Of a stretch of 51,620 bases of DNA, positions 1,432 to 51,513 are shown in pieces. The translations under genes and the position numbers were made by a program. The notes beneath the pieces were generated by a model, which was not told the origin of the DNA, searched no databases, and saw only the letters and a program-made list of their open reading frames with translations. Positions within the stretch are counted from its first letter, which is position 1, and every line of letters starts with the position of its first letter. The DNA is taken from contig CAMAYG010000011.1 of assembly GCA_945862535.1 (NCBI GenBank), positions 1-51,620 on the forward strand, written 5' to 3'. Source of the DNA: Rickettsia typhi (GTDB lineage Bacteria; Pseudomonadota; Alphaproteobacteria; Rickettsiales; UBA1997).

Positions 1432-2643
1432 ATGGAAGTTAACAATAAAAAAATAACCGCAGGGGCAATAATTAACAAATTAGCCAATGATAAAGTAATT
1501 ACTAAAAATAATGGTCAATTTTATGCTACAAGCAAAAATATTGCTACTGCAATAAATAAACTCTATTTAGAGGGTTTTGACTTTGACACTGCTTCAGCAG
1601 AGAGTGTTAATTGCAATAAAGAGATATTGCGATTAATATGTTCTCTTAAAGCTTCGCAAGCTGGTGGTCGCTTTGGTTTTGCTGTTAAAGCAACAACAAA
1701 TGAAGAGAAAGTCTTTAATGTTTCGAAAGATCTTGATCGGAATTGCATCAAAAAATTTAATGGCATTATCAGTCAAAATAAGTTATCACCATCTTTATCA
1801 GAAAAAACTAGTACAGAAAGTAAATTAACAATTGAAGAAAGTAATTTCAAAGATATCTTGAAAAAAAATGATACTTTTCAAGATAGTCTCACATATATCG
1901 AAAATGACATTGTTAAAAATACCAATTTTCTGCCAATAGAAATTCCACTTTGTAATAAAAAACCATATGAAGTCTATGCAGATAATTTATCCCCAGATAT
2001 TAAAGATGTTAAAAAATTTCAATATCTAACAAAGGTAGATATCCAAAAAAATCCTAAAAATATTTATCAACCATTTGAAGGTAGTCTTTATTCGATAAAT
2101 AATAATCAAATTTGTGGAATATTTAAAACTTTTAACCCCAATGCAGAAAACAATTCGCCTAATGTATCAGAGCCTTTTTTTGCAATAATTTCTAATGATT
2201 ATATGCGACATGGTTTTTCTGCACAAGATAGAAGTGATAAGGGTCGTTCCAAAGCATTGCTCGATGCTACTTTTCTAAATTATTTCGCATCGTCTTATAA
2301 ATTGCAAAAATCTACAAAAATTACATTAGATGAAAAAGTAATTTCAAATGTAGATAGTCTTGATCCTGTTTTTCAATATGTTGCCAAGAAATATAATGAA
2401 AATTTGTTGAAAAGTAACCAAATTAATGAAGCAGAAGTTAAAAACAATGTTCAACAAGCGATTGAAAATAAAGGAGATATTCCAAATAAAGGTATTAATA
2501 ATGAAATTATGGAGGAGGAAATCAAAGTAGGTAGTCAAATTAGTCCTACAGATCGTGGCTCTGATTCGGCTAGAAGCATCGTAAATTCCCCTAGCATCAC
2601 TTCAATTTCACAAATAAATCTTAAGGGATCCCTTGTTAATTAA
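1432..2643 (+). CDS. Orphan hydrophilic protein, 403 residues
   Basis: I see no recognisable catalytic motif. The product has no signal peptide and no membrane segment, and is rich in Asn, Lys, Ser and Ile. The N-terminal about 60 residues (a KITAGAIINKLANDKVI segment and onward) could be a small helical domain. The middle (about 180-300) has mixed helix/strand character, and the C-terminal about 70 residues are low-complexity and Ser/Asn-rich. It lies 40 bp downstream of the coiled-coil orphan on the same strand, with no terminator-like hairpin between them. The ATG at 1432 has no Shine-Dalgarno sequence, which is normal in this window. Orphan hydrophilic proteins of this size are common among intracellular or epibiotic bacterial effectors, but nothing here proves that role. 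Confidence 0.7.
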   Translation: MEVNNKKITAGAIINKLANDKVITKNNGQFYATSKNIATAINKLYLEGFDFDTASAESVNCNKEILRLICSLKASQAGGRFGFAVKATTNEEKVFNVSKDLDRNCIKKFNGIISQNKLSPSLSEKTSTESKLTIEESNFKDILKKNDTFQDSLTYIENDIVKNTNFLPIEIPLCNKKPYEVYADNLSPDIKDVKKFQYLTKVDIQKNPKNIYQPFEGSLYSINNNQICGIFKTFNPNAENNSPNVSEPFFAIISNDYMRHGFSAQDRSDKGRSKALLDATFLNYFASSYKLQKSTKITLDEKVISNVDSLDPVFQYVAKKYNENLLKSNQINEAEVKNNVQQAIENKGDIPNKGINNEIMEEEIKVGSQISPTDRGSDSARSIVNSPSITSISQINLKGSLVN

Positions 2644-2741
2644 CCTAGTTTATTTAAAAGAATAACTATCTGAAGCCTTTTTTTATATACTTCTAACAAG
2701 GTTTTGTAAAAAAGTTATTTTAACAAATTTAGTCTGGTGTA

Positions 2742-3053
2742 ATGCAAATAGAAATAGCCAATCTTAACTATCTGGTAAAAACAGATCAGCTTTTGCCAAA
2801 AACTTCTTTCAATCATCGATTTTGCTGGGCTTATAAAAAATTTTGGCAAAAACATTGGCAAAAATATCGCTAATATCAAAAAATCAAACGGTTGGAAGAA
2901 GTGGTTGGAAGGGCTGGATATCAAGTTGATTCTAGCCAATTGGTAAGTAAAATTCATCTTTGGAGCGAAAGAGACAAAGCAATTGCCGAGGGTCTGGAGA
3001 AGTTTAACAACCTCTTTCTTGTAGAAAATGTTGCAGGATCGATGGATTCCTAA
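2742..3053 (+). pseudogene. Nonsense-interrupted gene relic
   Basis: One reading frame runs from ATG 2742 to TAA 3051-3053, broken once by an in-frame TAA at 2871-2873. The part after the stop reads like real protein, with fragments such as KRLEEVVGRAGYQVDSSQ and LWSERDKAIAEGLEKFNN. The part before it contains WAYKKFWQKHWQKYR. The last codons (VAGSMDS) and the stop are supplied by a dispersed repeat whose other copy is near 51327. I read this as the decayed end of a larger gene, truncated by insertion of the repeat. I do not recognise the parent family. Readthrough or a short functional product is possible but unlikely. Confidence 0.5.
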
Positions 3054-3199
3054 ATACATTTTAGCGAAGTGCTGTTTAATATTGATTTTGTTGCCTTAGA
3101 TCTTCGCAACTTCGCTTCGCTTGTGCGGAGATGACGACTGGGGGAGTGCCGTTATTAACTGCAGATCTTCGCGAACTTCGCAGAAAAGGTGACGAGTTG
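3031..3199. repeat. Dispersed repeat, copy 1
   Basis: The segment GATTCCTAAATACATTTTAGC (3045-3065) followed by GAAG is also found at 51341-51361 and onward. The motif AAGGTGACGAGTTG at 3186-3199 recurs at 51500-51513. Between these lie GC-richer stretches with CTTCGC repeats and GATGACGACTGGGGGAG, which resemble 51473-51492 and 47752-47774. The composition contrasts with the AT-rich surroundings. This fits a small dispersed palindromic element family of the kind known in Rickettsiales. Confidence 0.65.
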
Positions 3200-3528
3200 T
3201 GAATTAGATATCGCGGAATTGCCAAAAATCAGTTCCAAGTCTTTATGGAAAGTCTGGCTTTTAATTTTACTGGCTTTTAACTTTAAAAGACTAATAAAGC
3301 TTGCAGATCAAAAGCCGATTGTAGATCAAAAACCGAGTTTTGCAACATAAAGATAGGGATTTTTGCATGAATACAAAAACTCATCAAATAAAGCCAAAAT
3401 AAAGCATTTCAAAGCATTTACAGACTAATAAAATTGTAAAAATTATTAAAAATTTTGAGAATCCATATTTTAAATTTACGACAGTCTCTAAGTTTCCATT
3501 TATTTATCGCCTTTGCAATATTGCAACC
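3200..3528. other. Gene-free AT-rich spacer
   Basis: No credible coding frame or RNA gene is visible here. It holds an imperfect direct repeat, AGATCAAAAGCCGA at 3305-3318 and AGATCAAAAACCGA at 3323-3336. A second direct repeat of TGGCTTTTAA lies near 3253 and 3270. It ends 3' to the minus-strand GHKL-nuclease gene and probably represents further decay of the neighbouring relic. Confidence 0.5.
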
Positions 3529-5328
3529 TTAACTTTTAATCTTCTTAGAATTTTTTATTATTTCTAAGAATGTTTTGTTGCGAGCATTTGCATCGGCAAT
3601 AATGGCATTGGGCGAGATGATTTGAATGTAAGAGTTTCTATCTTTGTAGCTATTTTGCCACACTTCGCCCTCATGAGAGAAAATTCTTTTAAAACCTTCT
3701 TTGTTTTCTAATTCATCTCTAAAATCATCTTCAACAGTTGCGAATAGATACAAATATAACTCCTTAACTCCGGCATCAAATAGCTTCTTGCTATAATTAA
3801 AGAGCTGAGAAATGCCAATGCCATTTTCCTTATAATTTGCGGTGAGTTTTTTTAATTCAATTATAACGGCTTTTTTCTTGTCTCTTGTGCTGAAATAGCC
3901 TATAATATCCATTTCTTGTGTTGATTTATGGTACTCTAAGCCATTTTTTTTAAGAAAAGTCGTTATAGTTTTCTCGCTCGCAATATAGCTATAACTCATA
4001 AATTTATCGTCTAAAAGCCATAGGTTATTTTTGTCTAATGGCACTTGCCTTTCGTCTGTTCCTTCTAGCCCCTGCCTTAAGAATAGATTGTGAATATTCG
4101 CCTCAACTTCCGTTTCTTTAAGCTCTTGAAGCTTTTTAATAATTTCTTGTCGGTGCAAAATGTATCTTATTAAATCGTTGCTGACACATTTTTTTATTTT
4201 TTCAATTGAGACATTTTTATTTTCCAGGTCTTTCTCTTCTTTTCTTGCTTTTTTATAGGCATTATCAAGCACTTTTGTTTCATCGACAAAGCCAATCAAA
4301 TCTTTGTTTTCTATGTAATCTGCGAGATACAAATATTTTGCTTTTAAATCGTTGATTTGTTTAGTATTTTGCTCTTCCAGTTCGGGAAATTTCTTATGTA
4401 ACAATTTATTAAGCTCTGTGATCAATTGACTTTTTACATCCGACCATTCAATAATAAGGCTTTCTTGCAAAGAATCTTCATCTTCTGTTGCAATATCTAG
4501 CTCGTGATATTGATTTGCTTGTTTGTTGATCCAGTAGGATTCAAGTAGAAAAGTTATGTGATAGCCTTCTATTTTCTTTAATTTTATTTTAAGATCTTTT
4601 GAAAACCTTTGCATAGGCCTGCCATTGATGCACACAAAATCATCTAAAATAGCTGTTTCGCTCTTTTCAAATCGATAAAATAAGGTCAGATCTATCGACT
4701 CTTCTTGTTCTTTTCCTCTTTTTGTTACTTTAAAATTTAAAGCTTGAATGTTTTTGAAGCTATCTCGGTCGATTTTTCGGCTATTATCGTTATTTATAAC
4801 AATTTCGCAATCTTTCGTTCTTAAAAAAAGAAACGGATATATGTGATTATAGATTTCTTGATAGGCTTTATCTAGGTCGTAGATGGTGTCTTCTAATGGA
4901 TCGCTTAAAGTGACAACGGTTTCTCTGCTATTGTCGTTAATTGGCTGTGGTGCAAGCTTCTCTTCGCTTAATTCGGCGGTAAAATCAAACTCGACCAACT
5001 CTTTATTTTGCCTGCTCGATATGCGAACTTTTTTGAATGATTTTAAATAAGAAAGCCTGCCAATTCCTTGACAGCCCTGCTCTTGCTTATGCCTGCTAAA
5101 ATAAGTAAGGAAAGATTTTTTATTCTCTTGGTTAAAACCTTCTCCATTATCTGTTACTGAAACTGAAGATAGGAAAGAGTCTTGGGTTAAATATTCGTTG
5201 CTTGGTGTAATATTTATTAAAATTTTGCTTGCACCGGCCTGAATAGAATTAACCAAAGCCTCTTTTATGGCTTCATAAATAGTGGTTTTAGGGTAGTTTT
5301 TAACTGCATTAGTGATGTCGGCTTTCAT
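3529..5328 (-). CDS. GHKL ATPase with C-terminal PD-(D/E)XK nuclease-like domain
   Basis: The N-terminal about 200 residues form a GHKL (Hsp90/MutL/gyrase-type) ATP-binding domain. The N box EALVNSIQAGA carries Glu23 and Asn27, the G1 box is DNGEGF at 60-65, and a glycine motif GCQGIGRLS spans 85-93. The middle (about 330-430) is Lys/Glu-rich and helical. Near the C terminus, MDIIGY (Asp474) followed by AVIIELKK (Glu491, Lys493) matches the D...ExK core of PD-(D/E)XK nucleases. Bacterial MutL/MORC-like ATPases fused to, or next to, restriction-type nucleases are known from genome-defence contexts (established family knowledge); the role here is inferred. The gene stands alone, divergent from addA, beside decayed DNA. 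No methyltransferase is visible nearby. The start ATG is at 5326-5328. Confidence 0.8.
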   Translation of the reverse strand: MKADITNAVKNYPKTTIYEAIKEALVNSIQAGASKILINITPSNEYLTQDSFLSSVSVTDNGEGFNQENKKSFLTYFSRHKQEQGCQGIGRLSYLKSFKKVRISSRQNKELVEFDFTAELSEEKLAPQPINDNSRETVVTLSDPLEDTIYDLDKAYQEIYNHIYPFLFLRTKDCEIVINNDNSRKIDRDSFKNIQALNFKVTKRGKEQEESIDLTLFYRFEKSETAILDDFVCINGRPMQRFSKDLKIKLKKIEGYHITFLLESYWINKQANQYHELDIATEDEDSLQESLIIEWSDVKSQLITELNKLLHKKFPELEEQNTKQINDLKAKYLYLADYIENKDLIGFVDETKVLDNAYKKARKEEKDLENKNVSIEKIKKCVSNDLIRYILHRQEIIKKLQELKETEVEANIHNLFLRQGLEGTDERQVPLDKNNLWLLDDKFMSYSYIASEKTITTFLKKNGLEYHKSTQEMDIIGYFSTRDKKKAVIIELKKLTANYKENGIGISQLFNYSKKLFDAGVKELYLYLFATVEDDFRDELENKEGFKRIFSHEGEVWQNSYKDRNSYIQIISPNAIIADANARNKTFLEIIKNSKKIKS

Positions 5329-5341
5329 TTTATAATAAAAT

Positions 5342-5394
5342 GGTTTTTATTGTTAATGGGGTTTTTATTGTTAATGGGGTTTTTATTGTTAAGG
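5342..5394. repeat. 18-bp tandem repeat in a divergent promoter region
   Basis: The unit GGTTTTTATTGTTAATGG occurs at 5342-5359 and 5360-5377, with a slightly changed third copy at 5378-5394. It lies 13 bp upstream of the start of the minus-strand GHKL-nuclease gene, in the 265-bp gap shared with addA. Copy number could affect that gene's leader or promoter. The rest of the gap is A/T-rich, with AAAAAAGCAA runs at 5514-5551. Confidence 0.85.
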
Positions 5395-5593
5395 GGCAAT
5401 ATAATTTCTCAATTTTAGCTTTACAAGTCCAAATAAACTAATTGTCACCACTTAATTTGCAATAACATTGTTGATTATAAGATTATTTTCTTTAATAATT
5501 TGCCTTAAAAACAAAAAAGCAAAAAAGCAAAAGCAGAAGCAAAAAAGCAACTTTTAATAAGACCTTATAAACAAACACCTAAATGGCACTTAA

Positions 5594-8500
5594 ATGGCAA
5601 TTTCACAAGAAGAAATAGAGCAAAGGAAATTAGCATCTAATCCGCAAGAATCGATATGGCTTTATGCCTCTGCTGGCTCGGGCAAAACCAAAACCTTAAT
5701 CGACCGCATCATTAGGCTACTGCTTAGCGGAACAATGCCAAATAAAATCTTATGCCTTACCTACACCGAAGCGGCAATTAGCGAAATTGTTAACAGAATT
5801 AATCTAGAATTAATTTCAATTGCCCTAAGTAATTGCGAAGATCTTGCGAACAAACTAACAGAGCTAGAATTGCCAAATAAGCCGTCGGACTTAGACTTTG
5901 CCCGCAGTCTTTACGAAAAAATTAACTTCGGAGACAATAAACTTAACATTCTCACTCTACATTCTTTTTCGCAGATGATGCTAAAGAATTTTCCAATTGA
6001 AGCTGGAGTAAAGCCTAATTTCGCCATCGCCAATAATCTAGAGAAAAGATCGTTAATTAACAAAGCCACGAATCTGGTAATAGAAAGATCGGGCAGGGAT
6101 TCTGCCTATTTTGAAATCGTTAGCAATTATTATAATATCTATGAAAAATTTTCCTTGGATGGCAGTGAAAATATATTATCGCTATTTGTTGATTTTATTG
6201 GCTTTGGCAACCCAGAAAGCAAAAATGAAGAGCCAAAATTTTCTGCAAAATTACAAAAAATGTTTTTATGGCAAATTGCCGATGAAGCCAATATCAGCCA
6301 GCAATCGCCAACCGCAAAATTTATTAATATTTTAAATTCAGGAATTGCCAATTGCGAAACTGTGGCAACAATAATTAGCAACATTATTAACAGCGGGATA
6401 TTTGCTAGCGATTTTGCTGAATTTAAAACCTTAATCCTTGCCACAAAAGGCACTTCTAAAAGCAAAGCCGATGTAATTAGTTTTCTAGAAACCCCCAACC
6501 AAGAATCTTTTGACAAATTAATCACCAAAGGCAATAAAATCAGTAGCAGAATTATCAAAATCTTACAGCCAGATAGCACGACAAAATTAAAAACACTGCA
6601 GGAGATCTTATTCTTCATCAATATAACGAAAGTTATTATAGAGGGATATTGCGACAACATTACCAAACTTGGCTTTTACTATTTAGTTTCGCAGAATTAT
6701 CAAGAATTAAAGAATAAAAATAGCCTTTTAGACTTCGATGATTTAATAAGTCGCACAAGGTTTTTATTAAAAAATATCGAATATCAATGGATTTTATATA
6801 AATTAAACGGTCTTTACAATCATATCTTGCTAGACGAATCGCAAGATACCAACCCCGAACAATGGGAAATAGTCGAGAAATTAACCGAAGATTTCTTTAG
6901 TGGCGAAGGCGGAAGTGAAAAAAAAACCCTGTTTATTGTTGGCGATCGCAAGCAGTCGATCTATAATTTTCAAGGTGCCAACCCCAATAAAACCGAAGAA
7001 GTTGCAATAAAATTTTCTCAACATCTCAAGCCAATATCTTTCAAATATTCGTTTCGTTTTACTCAAATAATTGCTAATGTTGTTGATTATGTATTTTCTA
7101 GCGAAAAATTTTGCGATGCGGTAAGTAACGGAAGCGGTGTGCAAGGCTCGTATCAAGGTCATGTTTCGGCAAAAATTACCAAGGAATCAAAAGAAAAAAC
7201 AGAAGATCGCAATGGCGGATTGGTAGAATTGTGGCAAATTTTTAATGGCGATCAAGTCGCGGAAATAGCCGATAAATCGCCAGGTTTTAGCAATTTTCTT
7301 GCCAAATATTCACAAAACCCCGATGAAGAAGATCGCGATGGCGAAGAAGCCGAAGCAGAATCTGCTCAAGAAGCAACTTTGGCAAACAAAAACAGCACTA
7401 AGAAGGAAGGTCCAAAAATCAAGATTGCCTCGAGTTTTGCTATTGCGAGCAAAATTAAAAAATGGATCGATGACGGCAGAATACTTGCAACAACGAATCG
7501 CCAAATTACCTTCTCTGACATTATGATATTGGCTCCTAAAAGAAGCGATTTTAACATTATTTACGAGGCTCTTAGGCACTTTGATATTCCAGTAAATGCT
7601 AATGAAAAAATTACACTTTTCCATAATTTTGCAGTTCTAGATTTGTTGTCGGCCCTTAAATTTATCTTGCTTGAGGACGATGATTTGAATTTGGCAGGAT
7701 TGCTAAAATCTGCTTTTTTTAACTTTAACGATTTAGAAATTTTCGATCTTTGCGAGCAAAAGCAACAGAATAAAACTTCACTTTTTACAGCATTATCTAG
7801 GAGCGAAAAATTTACCAAGGCTACCAGAATGCTTGTTAAGCTACAGCAATTTGCCAAAAAAGCCACTATCGTCGAGGTAATTTATTATTTAGCCGGAATT
7901 GCCGATTTCCGCAAAAATATTGCCACAGAATTTGGCTATGAAGCATTGACCGAATTTAATGGTTTTTTATCAATAATTATCCCGCTTGCCGAAAAAATCA
8001 CTAATTTACAAGAACTTATTAGCATTATTGACGATCAAGACCTAAAAGAAAAAAAGGAAATAACAGCACAAGAAGCGGTAATTATCAATACTATACATGG
8101 CTCTAAGGGTTTGGAGGCAAATATTATTATCACTATATTTAGTAATGACAACACTTCTAGCAGAGGAGTTAAAGTAAATAAAACTCTAATTAATCAAAAT
8201 GGAGAGTTTGCCGAATCTTATGTTGGCGATTCCAAAACGACAAATATCGCAAAAGCTATCAATATTAGCAACGACAACGATAATAAAGAACTGCATTCAT
8301 CGCTAAAATTCTTATCAACAGAGTTATTTTTGCCAATTTATCACGATTTACATAAGCAGGAACGATTAAAACACCAAGAGAAAAAAAGACTGCTTTATGT
8401 GGCAATGACCAGAGCATGTTGCGAATTATATCTTGTGCCAGTTGACGAGAAAGGTAAATTATATCAGGAAGTGCATAAAGTTTTAGCAAGTGCCGAAATC

Positions 8501-9349
8501 GACAATTTTAAATATTGCCAATCCGAGGAATTGTTAGCAGAATTAATTGACGAAAATACATCGAGGAAAAATGGTGCTAATAGCGAAGATTTAACACGAA
8601 AAAACAACCCAAAACCTAATAACGAAACAGGGAATCATTTGGTTTTCAACAAAAAATATCACTTAGACGACCTACACTTAGACAACCCGCACTTACATCG
8701 ACTGATTTTGCCAAATGAAAATGCTAAGGAAAATGCTAAGGAGAATACCAAGGAGAATATTTTTGAAAGGAATCTTGTAGAAGAAAATACAATAATAACG
8801 AGCGATGGCAACGATGCAGATCGTCAAGAATCTTCGGCACAAGAATCCTTAGCAATTGGCAAGAAATTTGGCTCGGTTTTACATAAAATTCTTGAAATAT
8901 TTGTCAAAAGCACGATTTATCAACCAAGATTATTGCTTGATATTGCAAAAAACCTGCTGGACGGCAATTATCAATTACCAATTAGTGCAAAAAATAAGAT
9001 GAACGAACAGCTTGTTAATTTTGCCAATTCTGCAATTTTTCCAGAAATATTTCTTAATACTAAAAATAAAATTGTTGCCGAATTAGAATTGGCAAGCATT
9101 ATCAATAACAAATACCAGATTCTTAGAATAGATTTGTTGATAAAAAAACACGATGAAAACAACAATTTGCTAGAATTGCTAATTATAGACTATAAAACAG
9201 GAATTATTAACGAAAATACCCTAGAGAAATATCGCCAACAACTTAAAAGCTATCAACTAGCCTTGGCACCGATTTACCCAAATGTAAATATCCGCCTTGC
9301 TTTGCTAATGCTACACGACAGCACTATTTATTATGTCGATAACATTTAG
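5594..9349 (+). CDS. addA: Double-strand break repair helicase-nuclease AddA
   Basis: AddA is the UvrD-like helicase and nuclease subunit of AddAB, which resects DNA ends for recombination. Motifs appear in order: Walker A ASAGSGKTKT (25-34), LCLTYTEAA, DESQDTNPEQW (near 414), VGDRKQSIYNFQGA (near 448), HGSKGLEA (near 833) and YVAMTRA (near 934). A C-terminal RecB-type nuclease follows, with GSVLHKILEIF (near 1092) and LLIIDYKTG (near 1194). Length (1251) fits alphaproteobacterial AddA. A low-complexity linker near 1035-1070 contains a 12-bp tandem repeat (8717-8752, coding for repeated KEN units) and His/Leu-rich sequence. The partner addB, usually upstream in alphaproteobacteria, is not in the window. 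Several other low-complexity Glu/Asn inserts are present. Confidence 0.93.
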   Translation: MAISQEEIEQRKLASNPQESIWLYASAGSGKTKTLIDRIIRLLLSGTMPNKILCLTYTEAAISEIVNRINLELISIALSNCEDLANKLTELELPNKPSDLDFARSLYEKINFGDNKLNILTLHSFSQMMLKNFPIEAGVKPNFAIANNLEKRSLINKATNLVIERSGRDSAYFEIVSNYYNIYEKFSLDGSENILSLFVDFIGFGNPESKNEEPKFSAKLQKMFLWQIADEANISQQSPTAKFINILNSGIANCETVATIISNIINSGIFASDFAEFKTLILATKGTSKSKADVISFLETPNQESFDKLITKGNKISSRIIKILQPDSTTKLKTLQEILFFINITKVIIEGYCDNITKLGFYYLVSQNYQELKNKNSLLDFDDLISRTRFLLKNIEYQWILYKLNGLYNHILLDESQDTNPEQWEIVEKLTEDFFSGEGGSEKKTLFIVGDRKQSIYNFQGANPNKTEEVAIKFSQHLKPISFKYSFRFTQIIANVVDYVFSSEKFCDAVSNGSGVQGSYQGHVSAKITKESKEKTEDRNGGLVELWQIFNGDQVAEIADKSPGFSNFLAKYSQNPDEEDRDGEEAEAESAQEATLANKNSTKKEGPKIKIASSFAIASKIKKWIDDGRILATTNRQITFSDIMILAPKRSDFNIIYEALRHFDIPVNANEKITLFHNFAVLDLLSALKFILLEDDDLNLAGLLKSAFFNFNDLEIFDLCEQKQQNKTSLFTALSRSEKFTKATRMLVKLQQFAKKATIVEVIYYLAGIADFRKNIATEFGYEALTEFNGFLSIIIPLAEKITNLQELISIIDDQDLKEKKEITAQEAVIINTIHGSKGLEANIIITIFSNDNTSSRGVKVNKTLINQNGEFAESYVGDSKTTNIAKAINISNDNDNKELHSSLKFLSTELFLPIYHDLHKQERLKHQEKKRLLYVAMTRACCELYLVPVDEKGKLYQEVHKVLASAEIDNFKYCQSEELLAELIDENTSRKNGANSEDLTRKNNPKPNNETGNHLVFNKKYHLDDLHLDNPHLHRLILPNENAKENAKENTKENIFERNLVEENTIITSDGNDADRQESSAQESLAIGKKFGSVLHKILEIFVKSTIYQPRLLLDIAKNLLDGNYQLPISAKNKMNEQLVNFANSAIFPEIFLNTKNKIVAELELASIINNKYQILRIDLLIKKHDENNNLLELLIIDYKTGIINENTLEKYRQQLKSYQLALAPIYPNVNIRLALLMLHDSTIYYVDNI

Positions 9350-39431: not shown

Positions 39432-40655
39432 CTTACTGCTCATAATACTCTTTTTAGGAGAAAAAACAATTTTCTGTGGCTTGTGACTTGTCGGCGATTG
39501 CGAATCTTTTGAAGTAGGTATTGTGGATTTAGGTGTCAAAAAGCCATCTTTCGATGCAAAACTAGAAGCTGAGCTTTTTTTAGATTTTGTGCTATTAGCA
39601 TCAAGAGCAGGCTTTTGTTGTGAGTAGTTTACTTGACTAGCACTAGGACATTCGTCATGCTTCTTATTAAGATTCAGCGAGTATAATCTTGATATCATAG
39701 CATCGGAACTGTTATGCAATATTTTATCAACCTTACTCTCCATATTTAACTTAGCTTTGCTAAAACCTGAAACAAGCTCTGACTGCGATTGATAATTAAT
39801 AATTTCATCTACTTCCGATAGGTAAAAACTAATTTGGGTATTCTCTTTATTATTCTGAACAAAGTCTTTAATCGCATTTTTGTTGATCTCGACAGGCTTG
39901 AAAAACAAAGAACCTATTGACCTAAAACCCTTAAGATCGTCATATTTATTGCTAATAAAAGGTCGGTTCATGAAAATCTTAGAGAAAGATTTGTAAAATT
40001 TTTCAAAATCATTATATGCCTCATCTTGATATCTATCGTTCATTTCCACTAAAACTTCGCTTAAAATATATGCTCCGAAGCTATGGGCGACACAAATTAC
40101 TTTTTCACAACCGCGATTAGCGAATGTTTTATATGCTCTATCAACAAAATTTTGCACATCTTCCCCGATTGGGGATTGAGTTCCAACGGCACCAATTAAG
40201 CTATAGTAATGAAGCTGTTCATTCTCTTGCTCTTCTCCATAGTAAATAGCATTAGAGATTCCAGTGTTGCTTTTAAGTGTGCTTTTTTTATAATCGATGC
40301 TCTCCTGCCCAAAACCAAAACCCTCAAAATACAGAACAAGAAGTTTAGATTGTTTTTGAGGTAAAGAAACAGCTTTAGACAACCTGCAACCGAGCAAATG
40401 GTTGGATTTTTGGGCAATAGAACCATCAAGCACTTTTTCATAAATTTTACTAGGTTTAGCAGTCTTAGAATGTGGTGGCTTTTTGCTGTTGCTTCCAGAA
40501 GAATGATATAAAGGCGTTTGCTCGCTATTAAAATTATCATCGTTAGGTATAATTTTACTGGGCTGTTGATTATTTGGTTTCATCCTGAGTGAGTTTATCC
40601 TGAGTGGGTTTATCCTGAGTGGGTTTATCCTGAGTGAGTTTATATTTTGTTTCAT
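39411..40655 (-). CDS. Orphan alpha/beta-hydrolase-like protein with repeat-rich ends
   Basis: The central part (about 100-290) looks like a serine hydrolase. A strand LLVLYFEGFGFG comes first, then KVICVAHSFGAYILSEVL with nucleophile candidate Ser192 (a HSFG form of GxSxG), then a strand FYLSEVDEIINY with candidate Asp283. His314 is a possible third residue. The first 25 residues are an LRINP tandem repeat and residues 26-75 are low-complexity. The C-terminal about 90 residues are Ser/Lys/Pro-rich and look disordered. No signal peptide is visible. This layout of a lipase-like core in disordered flanks fits a translocated effector, but that is inference. It converges with dxs, overlapping it by 21 bp. 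Confidence 0.7.
   Translation of the reverse strand: MKQNINSLRINPLRINPLRINSLRMKPNNQQPSKIIPNDDNFNSEQTPLYHSSGSNSKKPPHSKTAKPSKIYEKVLDGSIAQKSNHLLGCRLSKAVSLPQKQSKLLVLYFEGFGFGQESIDYKKSTLKSNTGISNAIYYGEEQENEQLHYYSLIGAVGTQSPIGEDVQNFVDRAYKTFANRGCEKVICVAHSFGAYILSEVLVEMNDRYQDEAYNDFEKFYKSFSKIFMNRPFISNKYDDLKGFRSIGSLFFKPVEINKNAIKDFVQNNKENTQISFYLSEVDEIINYQSQSELVSGFSKAKLNMESKVDKILHNSSDAMISRLYSLNLNKKHDECPSASQVNYSQQKPALDANSTKSKKSSASSFASKDGFLTPKSTIPTSKDSQSPTSHKPQKIVFSPKKSIMSSKLREVVL
40582..40641 (-). repeat. 15-bp in-frame tandem repeat at a gene 5' end
   Basis: Four copies of ATCCTGAGTGRGTTT (plus-strand reading; units at 40582, 40597, 40612 and 40627) encode LRINP/LRINS repeats at the very N terminus of the hydrolase-like protein. 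The first and fourth units have A and the middle two G at the variable site. The unit preserves frame, so copy number may vary among strains. Confidence 0.9.
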
Positions 40656-40882
40656 ATTATAGTATTTAATTTTATATTAATCATTATTACTAATTTTTTA
40701 TAAAGCAAAGTAAATTATTTATTTTATTATCAGAACTACGATGCCATTTTTCTGCATTGCACTATATTTTTTTCATGATTGGCTTCGGGAAATTGCAGAT
40801 CCTGCGATATTAATAATATTGCAATAATGAAATTGATAGTTATAAATTATTTGCAAAACGACAAAAATCAAAACCAGATCTT

Positions 40883-41779
40883 ATGACTAAAATTGCAAAA
40901 ACGAAAATTGCCGGCATCTTAAACCTTACCCCCGATTCATTTTCCGACGGAGGCAAATACCAACAATTTGCACAAGCAAGAATCCGTCTTGAAACCATGA
41001 TTTTAGAGGGTGCAAAAATGATTGATATTGGTGCAGAATCAACAAGGCCAAATGCTGTTGCTGTTAGTGCAGATGAAGAAAGATTAAGATTAGAATTTTT
41101 GCCAAATTTAATAAAAATAGTTCAGGATTTTAATCGATTTAATAATTTATCGATTGCAGATCGGGTCTTAACCAGCCTCGATTCCTATCATTTTGAAAAT
41201 TTGCAATGGTCGTTATCATTAGGTGTCGATGTGGTAAACGATATTTCTGGGCTAGAAAACCAAGATATTATCGCCCTAATCGCCAGAACTAAGGCAAAAA
41301 CAATTCTAATGCATAAAGATAAAATTTTACCCCCTGCAACAACGATTATCAATGCTAACCGCCACTTACCAGAGCAAATTTACGATTGGGCATTGAAAAA
41401 AATCACAAATTTAGCAACTTTAGGGGTGGAAAAAGAACAGCTAATCTTCGACCCCGGCATTGGCTTTGGCAAAGATGCTTGGCAATCTATTGTTGTGCTC
41501 CGTAATATTGCAATTTTTCGCAATTTAGATCTGCCAATTTATGTCGGTCATTCTAAAAAAAGCTTCCTTGACAAGATCTGCCTCTTTCATAACCAAGGAC
41601 ATAATAGTAAAAATTTAGTAAAATATAATACGATCCCTACTAGTCAATATCCCGCAGAAAATAAGCTAGATCGTAGTGCAAAAACCATTGCCGTTTCAAA
41701 ATTTTTAATCAAGCAAAATATTGATTGGCTTCGGGTTCACGATGTTGTTTTACATTACAATTTACTTAGATCTGACTAA
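40883..41779 (+). CDS. folP: Dihydropteroate synthase
   Basis: FolP joins 6-hydroxymethyl-dihydropterin pyrophosphate to p-aminobenzoate and is the sulfonamide target. Conserved parts are GILNLTPDSFSDGGKY (near 10-25), IDIGAESTRPNA, DVVNDISGL, LIFDPGIGFGKD, VGHSKKSFL and WLRVHDV. Length 298 is normal; the stretch near 240-250 is a variable insert. The last 45 codons and about 50 bp beyond the stop are duplicated at 44638-44820. FolB, encoded at 29440-29796, makes its precursor. Confidence 0.95.
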   Translation: MTKIAKTKIAGILNLTPDSFSDGGKYQQFAQARIRLETMILEGAKMIDIGAESTRPNAVAVSADEERLRLEFLPNLIKIVQDFNRFNNLSIADRVLTSLDSYHFENLQWSLSLGVDVVNDISGLENQDIIALIARTKAKTILMHKDKILPPATTIINANRHLPEQIYDWALKKITNLATLGVEKEQLIFDPGIGFGKDAWQSIVVLRNIAIFRNLDLPIYVGHSKKSFLDKICLFHNQGHNSKNLVKYNTIPTSQYPAENKLDRSAKTIAVSKFLIKQNIDWLRVHDVVLHYNLLRSD

Positions 41780-41825
41780 ATCTAACTTTTAGCTTGTAAT
41801 ATTAAGTTAATTAAATTATTTTGTA
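41645..41825 (+). repeat. Direct repeat, left copy (folP 3' end)
   Basis: This stretch, covering the last folP codons and the region after the stop, is repeated with scattered substitutions at 44638-44820. The two copies start at CAATATCCCGCAG and run through GATTGGCTT and the post-stop AATATTAAG. They bracket exactly one gene, the 891-residue orphan. Confidence 0.9.
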
Positions 41826-41854
41826 GCAAATAGTTTGAATTAATTTAATAAAAT

Positions 41855-44530
41855 ATGGAAATAAAATATCATCATAAGCGAGATAACAAAATAGCTCAAG
41901 AAACAATAACTACAACCCTAGAAATAAATGGGGAAAATCAAGATCAAATCAGCGGCTTTATCAACCCCGCAGTAACATTTACTGGCAAATGCATTATTAC
42001 CAAAAAACTAGCAGAACAGCCAATTTGTAACAATAATATTAAATTTCTTGGTGAATGTTCTTTTCAATTCAGAATTAGCAAAGATATTAGTGATCAAGAC
42101 GGACCGATTAAGGAAGAAGTTAACTATTATAAAATTATTGCCGATTACAATCAAAACCCTCCAAAATTTAAGCTAGAAGTTAATGACAAAGAATCGGAAG
42201 ACAAAATAAATATTGATGAATATGGCTATTTTATTATCGAGCATCAAGACAGCAACAAGAAAGATTGCGATTATTTTTTTTACCACGAACAGGCAAGGTC
42301 AAGAGGAATAGCAATAAAGCCAAAAGAAGAACTAACTCACCTAACCAAAGTTAATCTCTATAAAGATAGCTTAATCCATGGACTCTTCCACAAGAACCAG
42401 AAAGATCAGTCAATATTGCTGCAATATGGCAATTTCCAGTCGATCGATCAAAATAACCGTAATTCTTTTTATCAATCTGGCATTTTTGTTGATAATGAAT
42501 TCCAATCGGGCAGATTAAAAAAATTTTTCGACAATGGCAATTCGGCGATTTTGCAAGCGAATAATTTTATTGACTCAATTCCTGAAATTAATGAAATTCA
42601 ATCTAAAAACAAAATCGTTGAAAATGATGCAATTATTTTTGGTTTCAATCAACAAAGGAAGGATTTGTATCAAATTTCGCCAAATAATAATCAGCAATAT
42701 TTTACCTTAACCAATAATCCTAGACTTAATCTTGACAAACTCAGCTATTTTGCTAGAGCAAATCCCAATGCCCAAATTATTTTTGAAGACAGATTTTTAA
42801 GAGACTTCGAAACAAAAAAAGAAGAAAAGCAAGAATTGATTCATATCGTCGACGGTCGTAATATTTTCATTGCTGGCGGTTGCAACGACGAAAATGAATC
42901 AATAGCTAATTTTATTAAGCAAAATCAAAATCAATTTTCTGCAGAAACTAGAATTATTGCAAATCCTGCTAATAGTATTTTTAGTGAAGTTTATGATAAA
43001 AAAAAACAGCCGAGCTTTAATTTCTTTAAAGCTGGCATTAATGAGGTAGCCGAAGTAGAGAAGTGGGAAATATCAGCTAATCCAGATAATTCTGCCAAAA
43101 CAACTCACAAAGAAGCATCGCCAATTACAACTCGCAAAAAAGAATATTTATGGAGATTATGGCAAACAGAGGAGTATTTTCTAGATACAGAAAAAATACA
43201 ACAATTTGCCAATACTATGCCAACTCGACAGCAAAAGATTGACTATTTTTACGATATTCTAAACAATGATAATTATCAGATTAATGCTAAAGATCTGGCT
43301 ACTTCACTTAACTATTTTCAGGAAGAATCTGCCGAGGAAGAAGGCTATAAAACATCAATCCTTAATAATTTTCTAGCAAAAAACAATTTTGAAAATAGTG
43401 ATATCGATGATATTGTCAATAATTTACAAACACAAGAGTTAACTTTTAAGAGCTTGATTAATTCTTTTCCAGCTATAAAATATTCTAAGCTTAATATTTT
43501 AAAAGATAAAACTCTTGAAAAAGATAGAATTCTTGACAGAGAAGGTTTAATTATAGAAAAAAGATGTACAAAAGAAGGTAATTTAACTTTTCATTTTTTA
43601 AAACAAAGAGATATAAAGCGAGGAATATCAGAGGTTAAAAATGATAATGGCATTAATCCTTTTGGAAATGCAAGAGATGTAAAGCAAGAAATATCAGGGT
43701 CAAAAAACGATCGAATCTTGGTTGCCGTTTCAGAAAAAATTAATAACGAAGGTAGGATATATGTTGCTTCCGACAAATTTCCCCAAGCGAAAATTAACAA
43801 GGTTTACAGTTCGGCAACAAAAACATCAATTCTTGAAGAAGAGCAAAATAATCTCAATAAATTTGTTTTTTATCAACACGGCAGTAAATTAGGAGGAAAC
43901 GATTTAGATCTCGATGCTAAATTTTGGCAAAAATTCTTTAAAAACAAGGAACATATCGAAGATTTAAAAATTTCTGATATATCATGCTACGGTTCTTGTT
44001 TACATAAAATCATCGCCGATCGTCAAGAAATATTTGATTTTTTAGAGCAGGGGCAGAAATTAAGTTTTCAAATTATTGCTTCAAATATTGACAATCTGGC
44101 GGTTTTTACTAAACTTCAAAATTATCAAACCTTCAGCATAGAAAAAAGCGATAATTTATGGGAACTTGAAAAAAGAGCAAAGCTTAAAATTATTGTTGCC
44201 AGAGGTGATAAAGGGGAATTAACGATGAATATTTATAATTTAAGGAAATTAAACGAAAAAGAAATAATAGAATCGCAGAAGCCGGCAAAATTCGATTGTA
44301 AAAAAATTGCTTCAACAGCAAAAACATGTCAGAAAATTATCGATAACGACGAATTTGATAGTATTTCTGAGGCAGATCTTTCTGGAAACGATTCTGAATT
44401 AGAGGAAATAGACTCTAATTTGGATGAAGAAGCCTCGACAGACGACAACGAAAGCCTTGCAGCAATGCCATTCGCCTCTTTTAATCCTTCAATGGTTTCT
44501 AAAGCTTCATCTAGGTTGTTGCAGTTGTAA
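41855..44530 (+). CDS. Large orphan with C-terminal clan CD (C80-like) protease-like signature
   Basis: I do not recognise the family. The 891-residue product has no signal peptide and no membrane helix. About 1-400 is strand-rich with many Asn, Gln, Lys and Phe residues; about 425-540 is helical. Near the end, a hydrophobic strand leads to YQHGSKLGGNDLD (His675), and 30-odd residues later another strand leads to SDISCYGSCLH (Cys711, with Cys715 close by). A strand-HG plus strand-C arrangement, with later segments FQIIASNID and LKIIVARGDKGEL, recalls the cysteine-protease domain of large clostridial and MARTX toxins (C80) and other clan CD enzymes; this is inference from motif spacing. The tail (820-880) is acidic. 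Direct repeats of the folP 3' end flank the gene. Confidence 0.7.
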   Translation: MEIKYHHKRDNKIAQETITTTLEINGENQDQISGFINPAVTFTGKCIITKKLAEQPICNNNIKFLGECSFQFRISKDISDQDGPIKEEVNYYKIIADYNQNPPKFKLEVNDKESEDKINIDEYGYFIIEHQDSNKKDCDYFFYHEQARSRGIAIKPKEELTHLTKVNLYKDSLIHGLFHKNQKDQSILLQYGNFQSIDQNNRNSFYQSGIFVDNEFQSGRLKKFFDNGNSAILQANNFIDSIPEINEIQSKNKIVENDAIIFGFNQQRKDLYQISPNNNQQYFTLTNNPRLNLDKLSYFARANPNAQIIFEDRFLRDFETKKEEKQELIHIVDGRNIFIAGGCNDENESIANFIKQNQNQFSAETRIIANPANSIFSEVYDKKKQPSFNFFKAGINEVAEVEKWEISANPDNSAKTTHKEASPITTRKKEYLWRLWQTEEYFLDTEKIQQFANTMPTRQQKIDYFYDILNNDNYQINAKDLATSLNYFQEESAEEEGYKTSILNNFLAKNNFENSDIDDIVNNLQTQELTFKSLINSFPAIKYSKLNILKDKTLEKDRILDREGLIIEKRCTKEGNLTFHFLKQRDIKRGISEVKNDNGINPFGNARDVKQEISGSKNDRILVAVSEKINNEGRIYVASDKFPQAKINKVYSSATKTSILEEEQNNLNKFVFYQHGSKLGGNDLDLDAKFWQKFFKNKEHIEDLKISDISCYGSCLHKIIADRQEIFDFLEQGQKLSFQIIASNIDNLAVFTKLQNYQTFSIEKSDNLWELEKRAKLKIIVARGDKGELTMNIYNLRKLNEKEIIESQKPAKFDCKKIASTAKTCQKIIDNDEFDSISEADLSGNDSELEEIDSNLDEEASTDDNESLAAMPFASFNPSMVSKASSRLLQL

Positions 44531-44634
44531 AATTAAGTTAGAATTTGCAGTTAAAAAGCCAGATTTTGACAAGGTAACGGGGTTTGTTAAGCAAGTTTAA
44601 TAAAATCTAAATCACTTTGGTGCACCGCCCCGCT

Positions 44635-44772
44635 TGCCAATATCCCGCAGAAAATAAGCTAGATCGCGGTGCAAAAACTGTTGCCGTTTCTCAATTTCTA
44701 GTCGAGCAAAATATTGATTGGCTTAGGGTTCACGATGTTGCTTTGCATTGTAATTTACTTAGATTTGACTAG
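44635..44772 (+). pseudogene. Truncated second copy of folP (3' end only)
   Basis: The reading frame here gives QYPAENKLDRGAKTVAVSQF and then IDWLRVHDVALHCNLLRFD, ending at TAG 44770-44772. Over 45 residues, 36 are identical to the end of the intact folP at 40883-41779. Many nucleotide changes are silent (for example CGG to AGG in WLR), so this copy diverged while still coding, or came from a related strain. Similarity continues about 48 bp past the stop. The 5' part of the gene is missing; 44531-44634 shows no other gene. Confidence 0.9.
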
Positions 44773-44824
44773 ATTTAACTTTGCTCTTAAAATATTAAGC
44801 TAGTTAAATGATTATATTGTGGCC

Positions 44825-45622
44825 TTAATTAGTTATTAGTTCTTTATTTACCCTCTCAATCGTAATCTTTTTAGCATAAATCCCGCCAACTTGCGATTTT
44901 TTATCTCCATCTTTTCCACTCATATGAAGGACAAATGATATAATTTCACCATTTTTCTCGGCAAAACCAACAAAATAACCTTCTTTACGATTGCTTTTAT
45001 CGAAATCACTTGAGCCTGTTTTTCCATGCATAGACCACCAATTAGAACGAGAGCTTTCTTCCATTAATTTTATTAAATCTTTGGCCTTGACTTGAGATGA
45101 TTTGGAAAATGGCAGTTCATTTTTAGCAAGTTTCTCGATAAAGGCAAGTTGCTGTAGCGGTGTTATTTTTAAAGAACTTGTAAGCCAGCTGTCGGTTAGG
45201 CCATTATTTTGCCCCTCATCACCCGATAAATCTTGATTGCCGTATCCGAGTTTATCAACATATTCCTGAAACTTTTTTATGCCTAATTTTTGAGTCAAAA
45301 TCTGCGAATACCAAACCACAGAAAACCGCATCCAGCTTGAAGGGCTTTGCTCTCCATCGTGATAATATTGCAGGAAAGTTACGGGTTTCTGCGGTTTCCA
45401 AATTGGACTATGCCGTCCTTTAAGAATATCGCTTTCAAAGCCAATAATCGCCAAGGGGATTTTGAAACTCGAATTTGGAGAATAGAGAGTATGGCAATCT
45501 TTGCCTTCTTCGATGAGGATTTTATTGCCTTTTTTAACCAACAAACAATCGATGGTATCGGAATTGGCAACAGAAACTAAACTAAAAGACATTAAAAATG
45601 CAATAACAAAGATGTTTTTCAT
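44825..45622 (-). CDS. Class D (OXA-type) beta-lactamase
   Basis: The product is predicted to be a periplasmic serine beta-lactamase. All class D landmarks are present (numbering from the start at 45622): signal peptide 1-21, Ser51-x-x-Lys54 in SPNSSFKIPLA (nucleophile Ser and carboxylated Lys), SVVWYSQ (the Ser-x-Val motif), LGYGN (the YGN motif) and HGKTGSS (the KTG motif). Length 265 is typical. I chose ATG 45622 because a longer reading to 45721 would overlap the upstream ABC gene and lose the N-terminal signal peptide. It is the last gene of a run with two ABC-membrane genes, starting 4 bp after the second. It could instead be a non-hydrolysing penicillin-recognising homologue. Confidence 0.92.
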   Translation of the reverse strand: MKNIFVIAFLMSFSLVSVANSDTIDCLLVKKGNKILIEEGKDCHTLYSPNSSFKIPLAIIGFESDILKGRHSPIWKPQKPVTFLQYYHDGEQSPSSWMRFSVVWYSQILTQKLGIKKFQEYVDKLGYGNQDLSGDEGQNNGLTDSWLTSSLKITPLQQLAFIEKLAKNELPFSKSSQVKAKDLIKLMEESSRSNWWSMHGKTGSSDFDKSNRKEGYFVGFAEKNGEIISFVLHMSGKDGDKKSQVGGIYAKKITIERVNKELITN

Positions 45623-45626
45623 ATAT

Positions 45627-46631
45627 TCAAATAACAAGTTCCTTGGCATCGGGTTTATCAATAACTTCCTGCGGAGTTTGGAGTATTGAGAATGAGGATT
45701 TGAAGTCTCCGAGTTTGTCAAAAAAGTTGTCGACCTGCTCAGATAAAGCCCAGATATCGTATATTATTTTATATAGAATAGTAATGACATAGGCAAAGTC
45801 CCCAATTGTGATTTGGTTTACATAGCGTAAATATGCGGTATATATAAGAACTGTTGATGACATTCCCATAAATAAACCCGCTCCAACGCAGGCAAATTTG
45901 AATTGGTATAAGTTCTTTTTATAGTCTAAATCAGCGACTTCACCGCAGGTAAAATTGAGTATCCTCTTCAATTCTTTTTGCTTTGCTGAAAATGAAAAAA
46001 TTGTAAAAATATTTGTGATGTTATCGGCAATCATTCCAAATGCAGTGTGCTTGAGGTCATTTGAGCTTTGCGATAATGTACTCTGTTTTAGAGCCATTTT
46101 TAAACCTACAATAAAAAATATAATGCACCATATCAAAACCAAAATTGCCAAGTGCAAGTTAATAAAAACAAGCGATAAAGTCCCGAATATGCACATCACA
46201 AACGGATTGGTTATTTTCCACCAAATGTATTCAAATACATTATCGTAACCGTTAACAATGCCTTTTATTTTACTTGCAATAGAGCCCGAATGAGTATTTT
46301 GGAAAAATCTATAGCCATGATTTTGAACATATTCGTAAGATTTACTAATAATTTCACCTCTAATATAAGGCTGTGATTTATTGAAAGCCCATTGCCCGGC
46401 ACGGCACACAATCTCTTGAAATAGTGCAATGCTAATAAAAATCGCTATCGGATAAACTATATTCCACTTTGTAACAGCGACGCCACTTACCCCAGTGTCA
46501 ACAATCAGCTTTAGTGCATAACTATTTAGCACCGTAAATGCAACGGCTACCATTGGTATCTGAAACATCATAACATAATGCCACTTGTACGGCTTTAGGA
46601 TTGGATATAAAAACTTATAAATTTCTTTCAT
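45627..46631 (-). CDS. ABC-exporter membrane half without ATPase domain, copy 2
   Basis: The 334-residue product matches the membrane domain of type I ABC exporters: about six hydrophobic helices, the coupling region YVQNHGYRFFQNTHSGSIAS (FF..hxxGxI form) and a final helix before the linker. It ends at KPDAKELVI, just where the nucleotide-binding domain normally begins; no Walker A or signature motif follows. The gene upstream ends at the same point. The two are tandem paralogues with patches of identical DNA. The ATPase may be supplied by another protein, or both may be truncated. The stop is 4 bp before the beta-lactamase ATG. Confidence 0.85.
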   Translation of the reverse strand: MKEIYKFLYPILKPYKWHYVMMFQIPMVAVAFTVLNSYALKLIVDTGVSGVAVTKWNIVYPIAIFISIALFQEIVCRAGQWAFNKSQPYIRGEIISKSYEYVQNHGYRFFQNTHSGSIASKIKGIVNGYDNVFEYIWWKITNPFVMCIFGTLSLVFINLHLAILVLIWCIIFFIVGLKMALKQSTLSQSSNDLKHTAFGMIADNITNIFTIFSFSAKQKELKRILNFTCGEVADLDYKKNLYQFKFACVGAGLFMGMSSTVLIYTAYLRYVNQITIGDFAYVITILYKIIYDIWALSEQVDNFFDKLGDFKSSFSILQTPQEVIDKPDAKELVI

Positions 46632-46634
46632 AGT

Positions 46635-47645
46635 TTAAATAACAAGTTCCTTGGCATCGGGTTTGTCAAGCACCTCTTGCGGAGTTTGGAGTATTGAGAA
46701 TGAGGATTTGAAGTCTCCGAGTTTTCCAACAAAATCACCAACTTGGTTAAGTAAAGTAAAAATACTATCAACTAAAAAATAGGTAACGGTCATAACAAAG
46801 ACAAAATCCCCTGTTGTAACTGCATTAATGCGTCTAAGGTGTATCATAAAGATGAATAATGAGGCGAGCATAAAAACATAGAATGCACAACAAATTAGGG
46901 ATTGCTTCAATTCTAATTTAATCCAAGCATAGTCTTTTGGTGCGACATCGCATTTTAAAAACTTGTTGATACGTTTTAGCTCACAAGAATGGGCAGTGAA
47001 TGCAAAAATGCTAAAAATATTTGAAATATTATCTGCAATAAACCCCATAGCTTTATGCTGGCTGTCGGTTGTTGCTGTTGCAAGCTTGCTGATTTTGAGT
47101 GATAATTTTAGATTTATCGGAAAAAAGATAGCACACCAAATTGACATAAAAATAAACAGCTTTATGTTAATGAATGCAAGAGAAAACAGCACAACCAAAA
47201 CCTGCAAAAGTGGATTTGTAAGCTGGTGATGAACACCGAACCACAAATTATTATAACCAGTTCCTATGCCTTTTATTTTACTTGCAATAGAGCCCGAATG
47301 AGTATTTTGGAAAAATCTATAGCCATGATTTTGAACATAGTCATAAGCTTTTGCCGTGATCCCTATTCTAACAAATGGCTGGGACTTCATCCATGAAAAC
47401 TGGCTTGTTCTCCAAGCTAATTCCAGTACAAGAATAGCACCAATATACAAAGCTATCGGATATAGCAAGTCTGAGTATTCAGGCACGGCAGATTTGCCAA
47501 AAGCCTCAACTACAAGCTTAAGCGAGTACATATTAGTAACATTGTAAAATGCTCCTATTATTGGAGCTTGCATCATCAAAATATACCACCATTTGTAGGG
47601 CCTTATTACTTGCCAGAGGAAAGATGGGATTGTGTTTTCTTTCAT
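46635..47645 (-). CDS. ABC-exporter membrane half without ATPase domain, copy 1
   Basis: This is the first gene of the ABC-membrane/beta-lactamase run. The product (336 residues from ATG 47645; an ATG at 47675 would add 10 residues without similarity to copy 2) has the same six-helix exporter membrane domain as copy 2 and the same end, KPDAKELVI, with no ATPase domain. The two share IRPYKWWYIL/LKPYKWHYVM starts and an identical block of about 25 residues in the coupling region. The stop is 3 bp before the next ATG, so translation is probably coupled. The substrate is unknown. Confidence 0.85.
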   Translation of the reverse strand: MKENTIPSFLWQVIRPYKWWYILMMQAPIIGAFYNVTNMYSLKLVVEAFGKSAVPEYSDLLYPIALYIGAILVLELAWRTSQFSWMKSQPFVRIGITAKAYDYVQNHGYRFFQNTHSGSIASKIKGIGTGYNNLWFGVHHQLTNPLLQVLVVLFSLAFINIKLFIFMSIWCAIFFPINLKLSLKISKLATATTDSQHKAMGFIADNISNIFSIFAFTAHSCELKRINKFLKCDVAPKDYAWIKLELKQSLICCAFYVFMLASLFIFMIHLRRINAVTTGDFVFVMTVTYFLVDSIFTLLNQVGDFVGKLGDFKSSFSILQTPQEVLDKPDAKELVI

Positions 47646-47680
47646 AGCCCTGCTATTTGAAATTCCTGTAAACATTAAGT

Positions 47681-51237: not shown

Positions 51238-51267
51238 TAATATTATTAACAGAAACACTCACCACAT

Positions 51268-51513
51268 CGTCATCCTGCACGAAGTTGCAGGATCCATAGT
51301 TACCCCGTCGTCATCCTCGCGCGAAGTCGCAGGATCCACAGATTCCTAAATACATTTTAGCGAAGCGATAATTCTACGGAAGCGACAATTTTATTGATTT
51401 TATTACTCTGGATCCTGCGACTTCGCGCAGGATGACAAAAGAGGTCGCGCAGGATGACAAGGTGAGTGTGCAGGATGACGGCGGGGGGAGTTTTTGGGCA
51501 AGGTGACGAGTTG
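51268..51513. repeat. Palindromic dispersed repeat array, copy 3
   Basis: This GC-richer stretch follows coaBC. GTCATCCTGCACGAAGTTGC (51269-51288) with AGGATCC faces GGATCCTGCGACTTCGCGCA (51410-51429) with GGATGAC, forming a large imperfect inverted repeat. Several further copies of CATCCT.../...AGGATGAC occur at 51311-51336, 51441-51457 and 51470-51479. Inside it, ATTCCTAAATACATTTTAGCG is shared with 3046-3066, and AAGGTGACGAGTTG at 51500-51513 is shared with 3186-3199. No coding frame is credible. It looks like a palindromic element family nested on itself. Confidence 0.8.

Follow-up and report, generated by a model that had tools for sequence, protein, structure and literature searches.

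Repeat of the folP 3' end

When analyzing a 51,620-nucleotide window from a draft genome assigned to Rickettsia typhi (assembly GCA_945862535.1; 1,542,155 bases in 37 contigs), which is the entire contig C11 (CAMAYG010000011.1), we found the 3' end of folP, the dihydropteroate synthase gene, in two copies that bracket a single 891-codon gene. Repeat search and BLASTN results showed that positions 41645 to 41820 match positions 44638 to 44813 without gaps over 176 nt, with 151 of 176 positions identical, 25 differences, and a spacing of 2993 nt. In 60 Markov shuffles of 41821 to 46500, the best 176-nt ungapped match never exceeded an identity of 0.45, compared with the observed 0.86, and chance is therefore excluded. 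The repeat claimed in a first-pass annotation of this DNA, made from the letters alone, is thus real; its count of 36 identical residues in 45 became 36 of 44 from residue Q and 35 of 43 from the next residue. We tentatively favor the explanation that a block consisting of a folP end and the enclosed gene was imported from a close relative by recombination and displaced the resident folP end.

The left copy belongs to an intact folP gene (40883 to 41779, forward strand), whose 298-residue product matches PF00809 and scores 196.7 bits with TIGR01496, against a cutoff of 162.6. It comprises the functional 3' end of the gene and 41 nt beyond the stop codon, and in the right copy, also on the forward strand, the homology ends 12 nt short of the end, at 44825, of a convergent gene. 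The reading frame of the right copy is open over 53 codons, and the homology has a sharp edge at 44637/44638. Nothing convincing of a folP body was found between the two ends, where the best protein match covers 26 residues at an E value of 0.028, and among the 20 largest direct-repeat families of 40000 to 46500 the region before folP has no match to the insert longer than 33 nt at 73%. A search of the same genome with 41560 to 41840 returned no third folP end among the best 40 of 66 candidates, the remaining 38 of the 40 scored rows being matches of only 15 to 53 nt. Fourteen nt at 40776 to 40789, about 94 nt upstream of the folP start, exactly repeat part of the folP end.

The longest identical run in the repeat, 29 nt (41645 to 41673, forward strand), lies at the upstream edge of the homology. 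In a run-length test, a run of this length at either edge had a P value of about 0.016, and it is a possible crossover core.

Kinship and divergence of the two ends

The folP product has a 29-residue loop just before the motif LDRSAK, which is without counterpart in all 16 aligned relatives; one relative (L047) has a different, shorter insertion near this position. The homology of the right copy starts within the loop, and therefore both copies derive from one lineage that already had at least that part of it. In a tree of folP ends, left and right copies group together with support of 96/95 (a long-branch warning concerned another part of the tree). Given this grouping and the part of the private loop that both ends have, a donor, if there was any, would be a near relative, or else the copy would be local. 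Closest kinship of the two copies was one of two signs that, in the first-pass annotation, would together speak for a simple old local duplication, and the tree, whose other ends come from relatives above strain level, gives that grouping.

Full-length folP groups with those of two genus mates at 90/95, which is under the star threshold of the tool, and their folP proteins share 54 to 55% identity with it. The nearest named relatives among the best 80 of 579, a set that may omit the window's own or very near records, were an uncultured alphaproteobacterium (45%) and another alphaproteobacterium and a Rickettsiales bacterium (35%), for which reason we speak of a Rickettsiales-like bacterium.

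The coding part of the repeat has 15 differences in 129 nt, 12 of them transitions, and a ratio of nonsynonymous to synonymous substitution rates of 0.28; in the 44 nt beyond it there are 10 differences (Fisher P = 0.08). When neutral evolution was simulated with the same substitution spectrum, 24% of the runs kept as many identical residues or more (P = 0.24). The positions of the changes tell more than their number. All eight changed residues fall in columns that are variable in the family (permutation P = 3.2e-4 in a larger rerun, the value used here; 5e-5 in a first run). The P value was 2.4e-4 with 13 same-family rows and 1.8e-4 without the genus mates, the three relative sets overlapping. 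The right copy also fits the family profile better than 98.6% of the neutral simulations (P = 0.014). Hence the "coding-type" substitutions claimed for the right copy are suggested by where the residue changes lie (P of about 3e-4) but not by counts alone.

Outgroup states, which are noisy at such a distance, favor the left copy at nine sites and the right copy at five, with one tie. With the tie counted to the right copy, ten changes fall on the right copy, giving seven residue changes, and five on the left copy, giving one. Because the residue changes are confined to family-variable columns, the copies probably diverged for the most part while each belonged to a functioning folP, be it in two separate strains or in a pair of complete genes, and the evidence for this is moderate. 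The divergence of the two ends (15 of 129 nt) resembles that between the whole folP genes of two sister species (88% identity).

The enclosed gene and its C-terminal domain

The enclosed gene (41855 to 44530, forward strand, from the list of open reading frames) encodes an 891-residue protein that had no Pfam, NCBIfam, or PHROG match. The first-pass annotation called it an orphan, which holds for the N-terminal two thirds, for which no convincing relatives were found, but not for the C-terminal domain (43691 to 44326), which, by sequence comparison, also occurs in five MORN-repeat proteins encoded in this genome, L061 (C4), L062 (C37), L063 (C5), L064 (C34), and L065 (C17). The MORN repeats were checked with Pfam in two of the five paralogs and read by eye in the other three.

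In domain numbering, H124-G125 and C160 are invariant in all six sequences. A histidine and a cysteine placed just after two core strands are the motif of caspase-fold (clan CD) peptidases. In the structural model of a paralog, H72 follows the strand 64 to 70 and C110 follows the strand 102 to 108, and the C-terminal domain is predicted to resemble the caspase fold. It differs from clan CD peptidases in that no solved clan CD chain matched its sequence, the search returning just two other chains at E values of 0.3 and 2.1, and in that its five paralogs carry MORN repeats. The domain was found in 1 of 62 genomes of the family, 1 of 344 of the order, and 1 of 385 in a sample of the class, each time the genome studied here; it was not found in the 343 other genomes of the order. 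Three of the six genes with this domain lie less than 300 nt from a contig end. Dispersed repeats at 3030 to 3487 and 51256 to 51444 of the window recur, with up to 94.5% identity over 110 nt, beside MORN-caspase genes on contigs C17 and C34.

folP loci in related genomes

We compared the folP loci of 13 relatives (3 of the 16 fetched were left out), matching each folP 3' end against its own locus. No second end was seen, only stray matches of 16 to 25 nt; seven of the 13 loci hold at least 3 kb downstream of folP, and at the other six, with shorter downstream sequence, a scar could be missed. The genes downstream of folP in relatives include, as read by eye, dnaK, dnaJ, and an exonuclease-III-like gene. 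In the family, a second folP end was present in none of the 34 of 61 other genomes that gave a match, the remaining 27 being uninformative. The proposal that folP serves as a recurrent integration point for cargo genes is thus supported neither by these loci nor by the matching family genomes, and we rejected it.

We also compared 334,537 bases of the genome (including 4000 N) with themselves. The resulting list, which leaves aside repeats shorter than 60 nt, spacings of at least 12 kb, and rows of at least 100 nt with a spacing below 1500 in the five MORN loci, contains, as judged by eye, tandem arrays, repeats dispersed between genes, and paralogs, with local repeats being common. No other housekeeping gene end bracketing a gene was seen in it.

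The place of folP differs between relatives. In both genus mates, folP has a different location from the one here. In sister species G002, the order is ebfC-trpF-kup-recR and then folP (gene names by eye), whereas in the genome studied here recR is followed by a gene for an NgoPII-type restriction enzyme (a partial profile match), a C5-cytosine methylase gene, and further genes. These two genes and two more open reading frames occupy 2536 to 6111 of locus L186 (C25), where G002 has folP, and no folP remnant was found beside recR. Because the neighbors of recR differ in this way, folP has changed place in one of the lineages.

Origin of the arrangement

What is observed directly is two folP ends in register, an intact folP, a right copy without a convincing folP body, a shared loop, and a bias of residue changes toward variable columns. 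To explain them, we propose that recombination within the folP loop brought in a piece of DNA on which a close relative's form of the folP 3' end preceded the caspase-like gene. This newly arrived end would have completed folP, leaving the gene intact, and the resident 3' end would have been moved 2993 bp downstream and kept as a truncated fragment beside its old neighbor, the beta-lactamase-like gene. Under this scheme, the left end would be the incoming one, the donor would be a relative at a synonymous divergence (dS) near 0.3, and the join would have been homologous on one side and illegitimate on the other, or else made by a single crossover of a circular molecule. The first-pass annotation had offered a similar import as one of two views, and the layout does fit an import that regenerates folP and displaces the resident end; the grouping of the two copies at 96/95 does not favor it.

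Consistent with import, the 29-nt run marks the upstream edge of the homology, the place expected of a crossover, and the homology ends just past the folP stop, where the neighbors differ. We also count for it the confinement of all eight residue changes to family-variable columns, with the profile-fit (P = 0.014) and right-branch (P = 0.02) results, the lack of a convincing folP body between the ends, the similarity of the folP-end divergence to that of the sister species' folP genes, the failure to find the enclosed domain elsewhere in the order, and the changed place of folP. Since the unit has no integrase, recombination with DNA of a near relative is the simpler reading.

Several observations weigh on the other side. 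Since the two ends cluster and have in common a loop that none of the other genomes examined shows, a foreign donor is not demonstrated, and no strain is known with an empty site or with the donor arrangement. GC content at third codon positions is the same in both ends (11 of 43 each) and does not differ significantly between the enclosed gene and the folP body (P = 0.13). A 29-nt run somewhere in the repeat, rather than at an edge, is not rare (P = 0.19). The counts of synonymous and replacement changes fit neutrality, and the seven residue changes of the right copy are close to the neutral mean of 6.6.

The main rival, a local origin, is possible, if somewhat doubtful: folP would have been duplicated in tandem, both genes would have worked for a time, and the caspase-like gene would then have replaced the 5' part of the second. 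This would account for the grouping of the ends and for the private loop common to both, and selection on both copies would be explained if both had once been complete genes. Moreover, the adjacent transporter genes likewise form a tandem pair with patchy tracts of 90% identity, and local repeats are common in the self-compared sequence. However, at least two events are needed, the second folP body left no convincing trace between the ends, and the longest identical run at the truncated edge is not predicted.

Site-specific integration, in which the 2993-bp unit would be a small element with a replacement folP end in its attachment site and with an integrase that acted in trans or has since been lost, seems unlikely to us. 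The layout matches that described for e14 in icd (PMC6379469), the 29-nt identical run lies at the upstream edge, and two tyrosine recombinases are encoded elsewhere in the genome, on C14 and C9, the only places with PF00589. Yet the one open reading frame of at least 80 codons in the unit lacks any Pfam, NCBIfam, or PHROG match and so provides no integrase, a search of the 80 nt surrounding the 29-nt run gave no inverted repeat with arms of 6 nt, and a second end was not seen at the 13 other folP loci, with the limit of downstream sequence given above. A bolder reading, which we regard as quite improbable, takes the unit for a minimal cassette without integrase: with a caspase-fold effector-like gene aboard, it would home into the folP loop and restore folP by its own 3' end, as one of several caspase-fold genes that spread in this one lineage via ends borrowed from housekeeping genes.

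It is very unlikely that the right copy was dead from the start, a short piece of the folP end that slippage during replication, or repair, had duplicated and that then drifted neutrally. Substitution counts alone would allow this, and seven of the eight residue changes are assigned to the right copy. Nevertheless, the changes on the right branch hit none of the 20 conserved columns among 36, where 2.9 hits are expected (P = 0.02), and no stop codon arose in the right copy, against 27 to 28% of neutral simulations with one. We give almost no credence to the idea that the assembly is a chimera joining two strains, in one of which folP is followed by the caspase-like gene and in the other by the gene at 44825: strain mixing is possible in a draft of 37 contigs, but a false join via the 29-nt run would still need sequence in which the downstream flank of the enclosed gene runs into that run, and nowhere else in the genome does this flank continue into folP-like sequence.

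Under the import explanation, the locus looks like the scar of a gene import in a small Rickettsiales-like genome, in which a housekeeping gene exchanged its tail and an effector-like gene was acquired. Should strains with the donor arrangement and with an empty site be found, the scar would show how bacteria of this kind gain genes with no mobile element adjacent. Independently of its origin, the enclosed gene points to a family of MORN-repeat proteins that is specific to the lineage and has a predicted caspase-like domain.

Neighboring genes

Convergent with folP is a gene of the class D beta-lactamase-like/transpeptidase family (44825 to 45721, reverse strand; PF00905). Its score with the NCBIfam model bla_class_D_alt, 215.5 bits, is under the curated cutoff of 280, so that it can be called class-D-like only; as judged by eye, its true start is probably downstream of the listed TTG. 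Adjacent to it is a tandem pair of genes for membrane domains of ATP-binding cassette (ABC) transporters (45627 to 47675, reverse strand; Pfam and alignment), in neither of which an ATPase domain was found by Pfam. Two tracts of about 105 nt, 45617 to 45725 and 46239 to 46343 compared with 46626 to 46733 and 47247 to 47351, are 90% identical, while elsewhere the paralogs are near 50%, as if by gene conversion. At 4387 to 8977 of locus L061 (C4), a second pair of ABC membrane-domain genes and a separate ATPase gene stand directly before the MORN-caspase gene.

Comparison with known systems

An import scar would belong to a known class of events, though the gene that bears it here is unusual. 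In the dusA and trmE genomic islands, as described in the cited accounts, cargo occupies a constant position within a housekeeping gene, the frame of which can be restored (PMC4482086; PMC8409611), and the folP locus is similar in having cargo within a housekeeping gene with a restorable reading frame. However, the dusA islands, in the same account, share an integrase, recur in many genomes, and lie at the 5' end of the gene; nothing such was found at folP in the 13 loci and 34 family genomes.

The layout is closer to that of e14 in the icd gene of Escherichia coli. According to the published description, e14 is a 15-kb prophage that supplies a new end to icd, and the displaced 163-bp end is a pseudogene (PMC6379469). 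In both cases, a protein-coding gene is completed by a 3' end borne on the element and the old end is duplicated on the far side, 163 bp in icd as described there and 176 bp here, including the stop codon and 41 nt. At folP, too, the target is intact, its product passing the TIGR01496 cutoff, and the right copy stands on the same strand, that is, in direct orientation, with the left end as the putative import. The difference, as far as that description goes, is between a 15-kb prophage and a 2993-bp unit with one gene, no integrase of its own (its one open reading frame of at least 80 codons is without a family match), and no known empty site.

In the Vibrio type VI secretion system (T6SS) and Rhs loci, the cited papers describe displaced gene ends and orphan immunity arrays, in which new DNA has come in next to a homologous anchor and the old 3' part stays downstream as an orphan (PMC5361080; PMC3240628). 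For such orphan ends, homology-facilitated illegitimate recombination is proposed, not shown, in the source (PMC5361080). An acquired gene without homologue in the relatives of the recipient belongs to this mechanism, and the 891-residue protein gene fits that description. What differs here is the target, which is not a toxin-immunity locus but a folate gene with a housekeeping role, and that the imported end would have the same function as the old one; like the loci in those accounts, folP has a displaced old 3' part retained downstream of what would be newly entered DNA.

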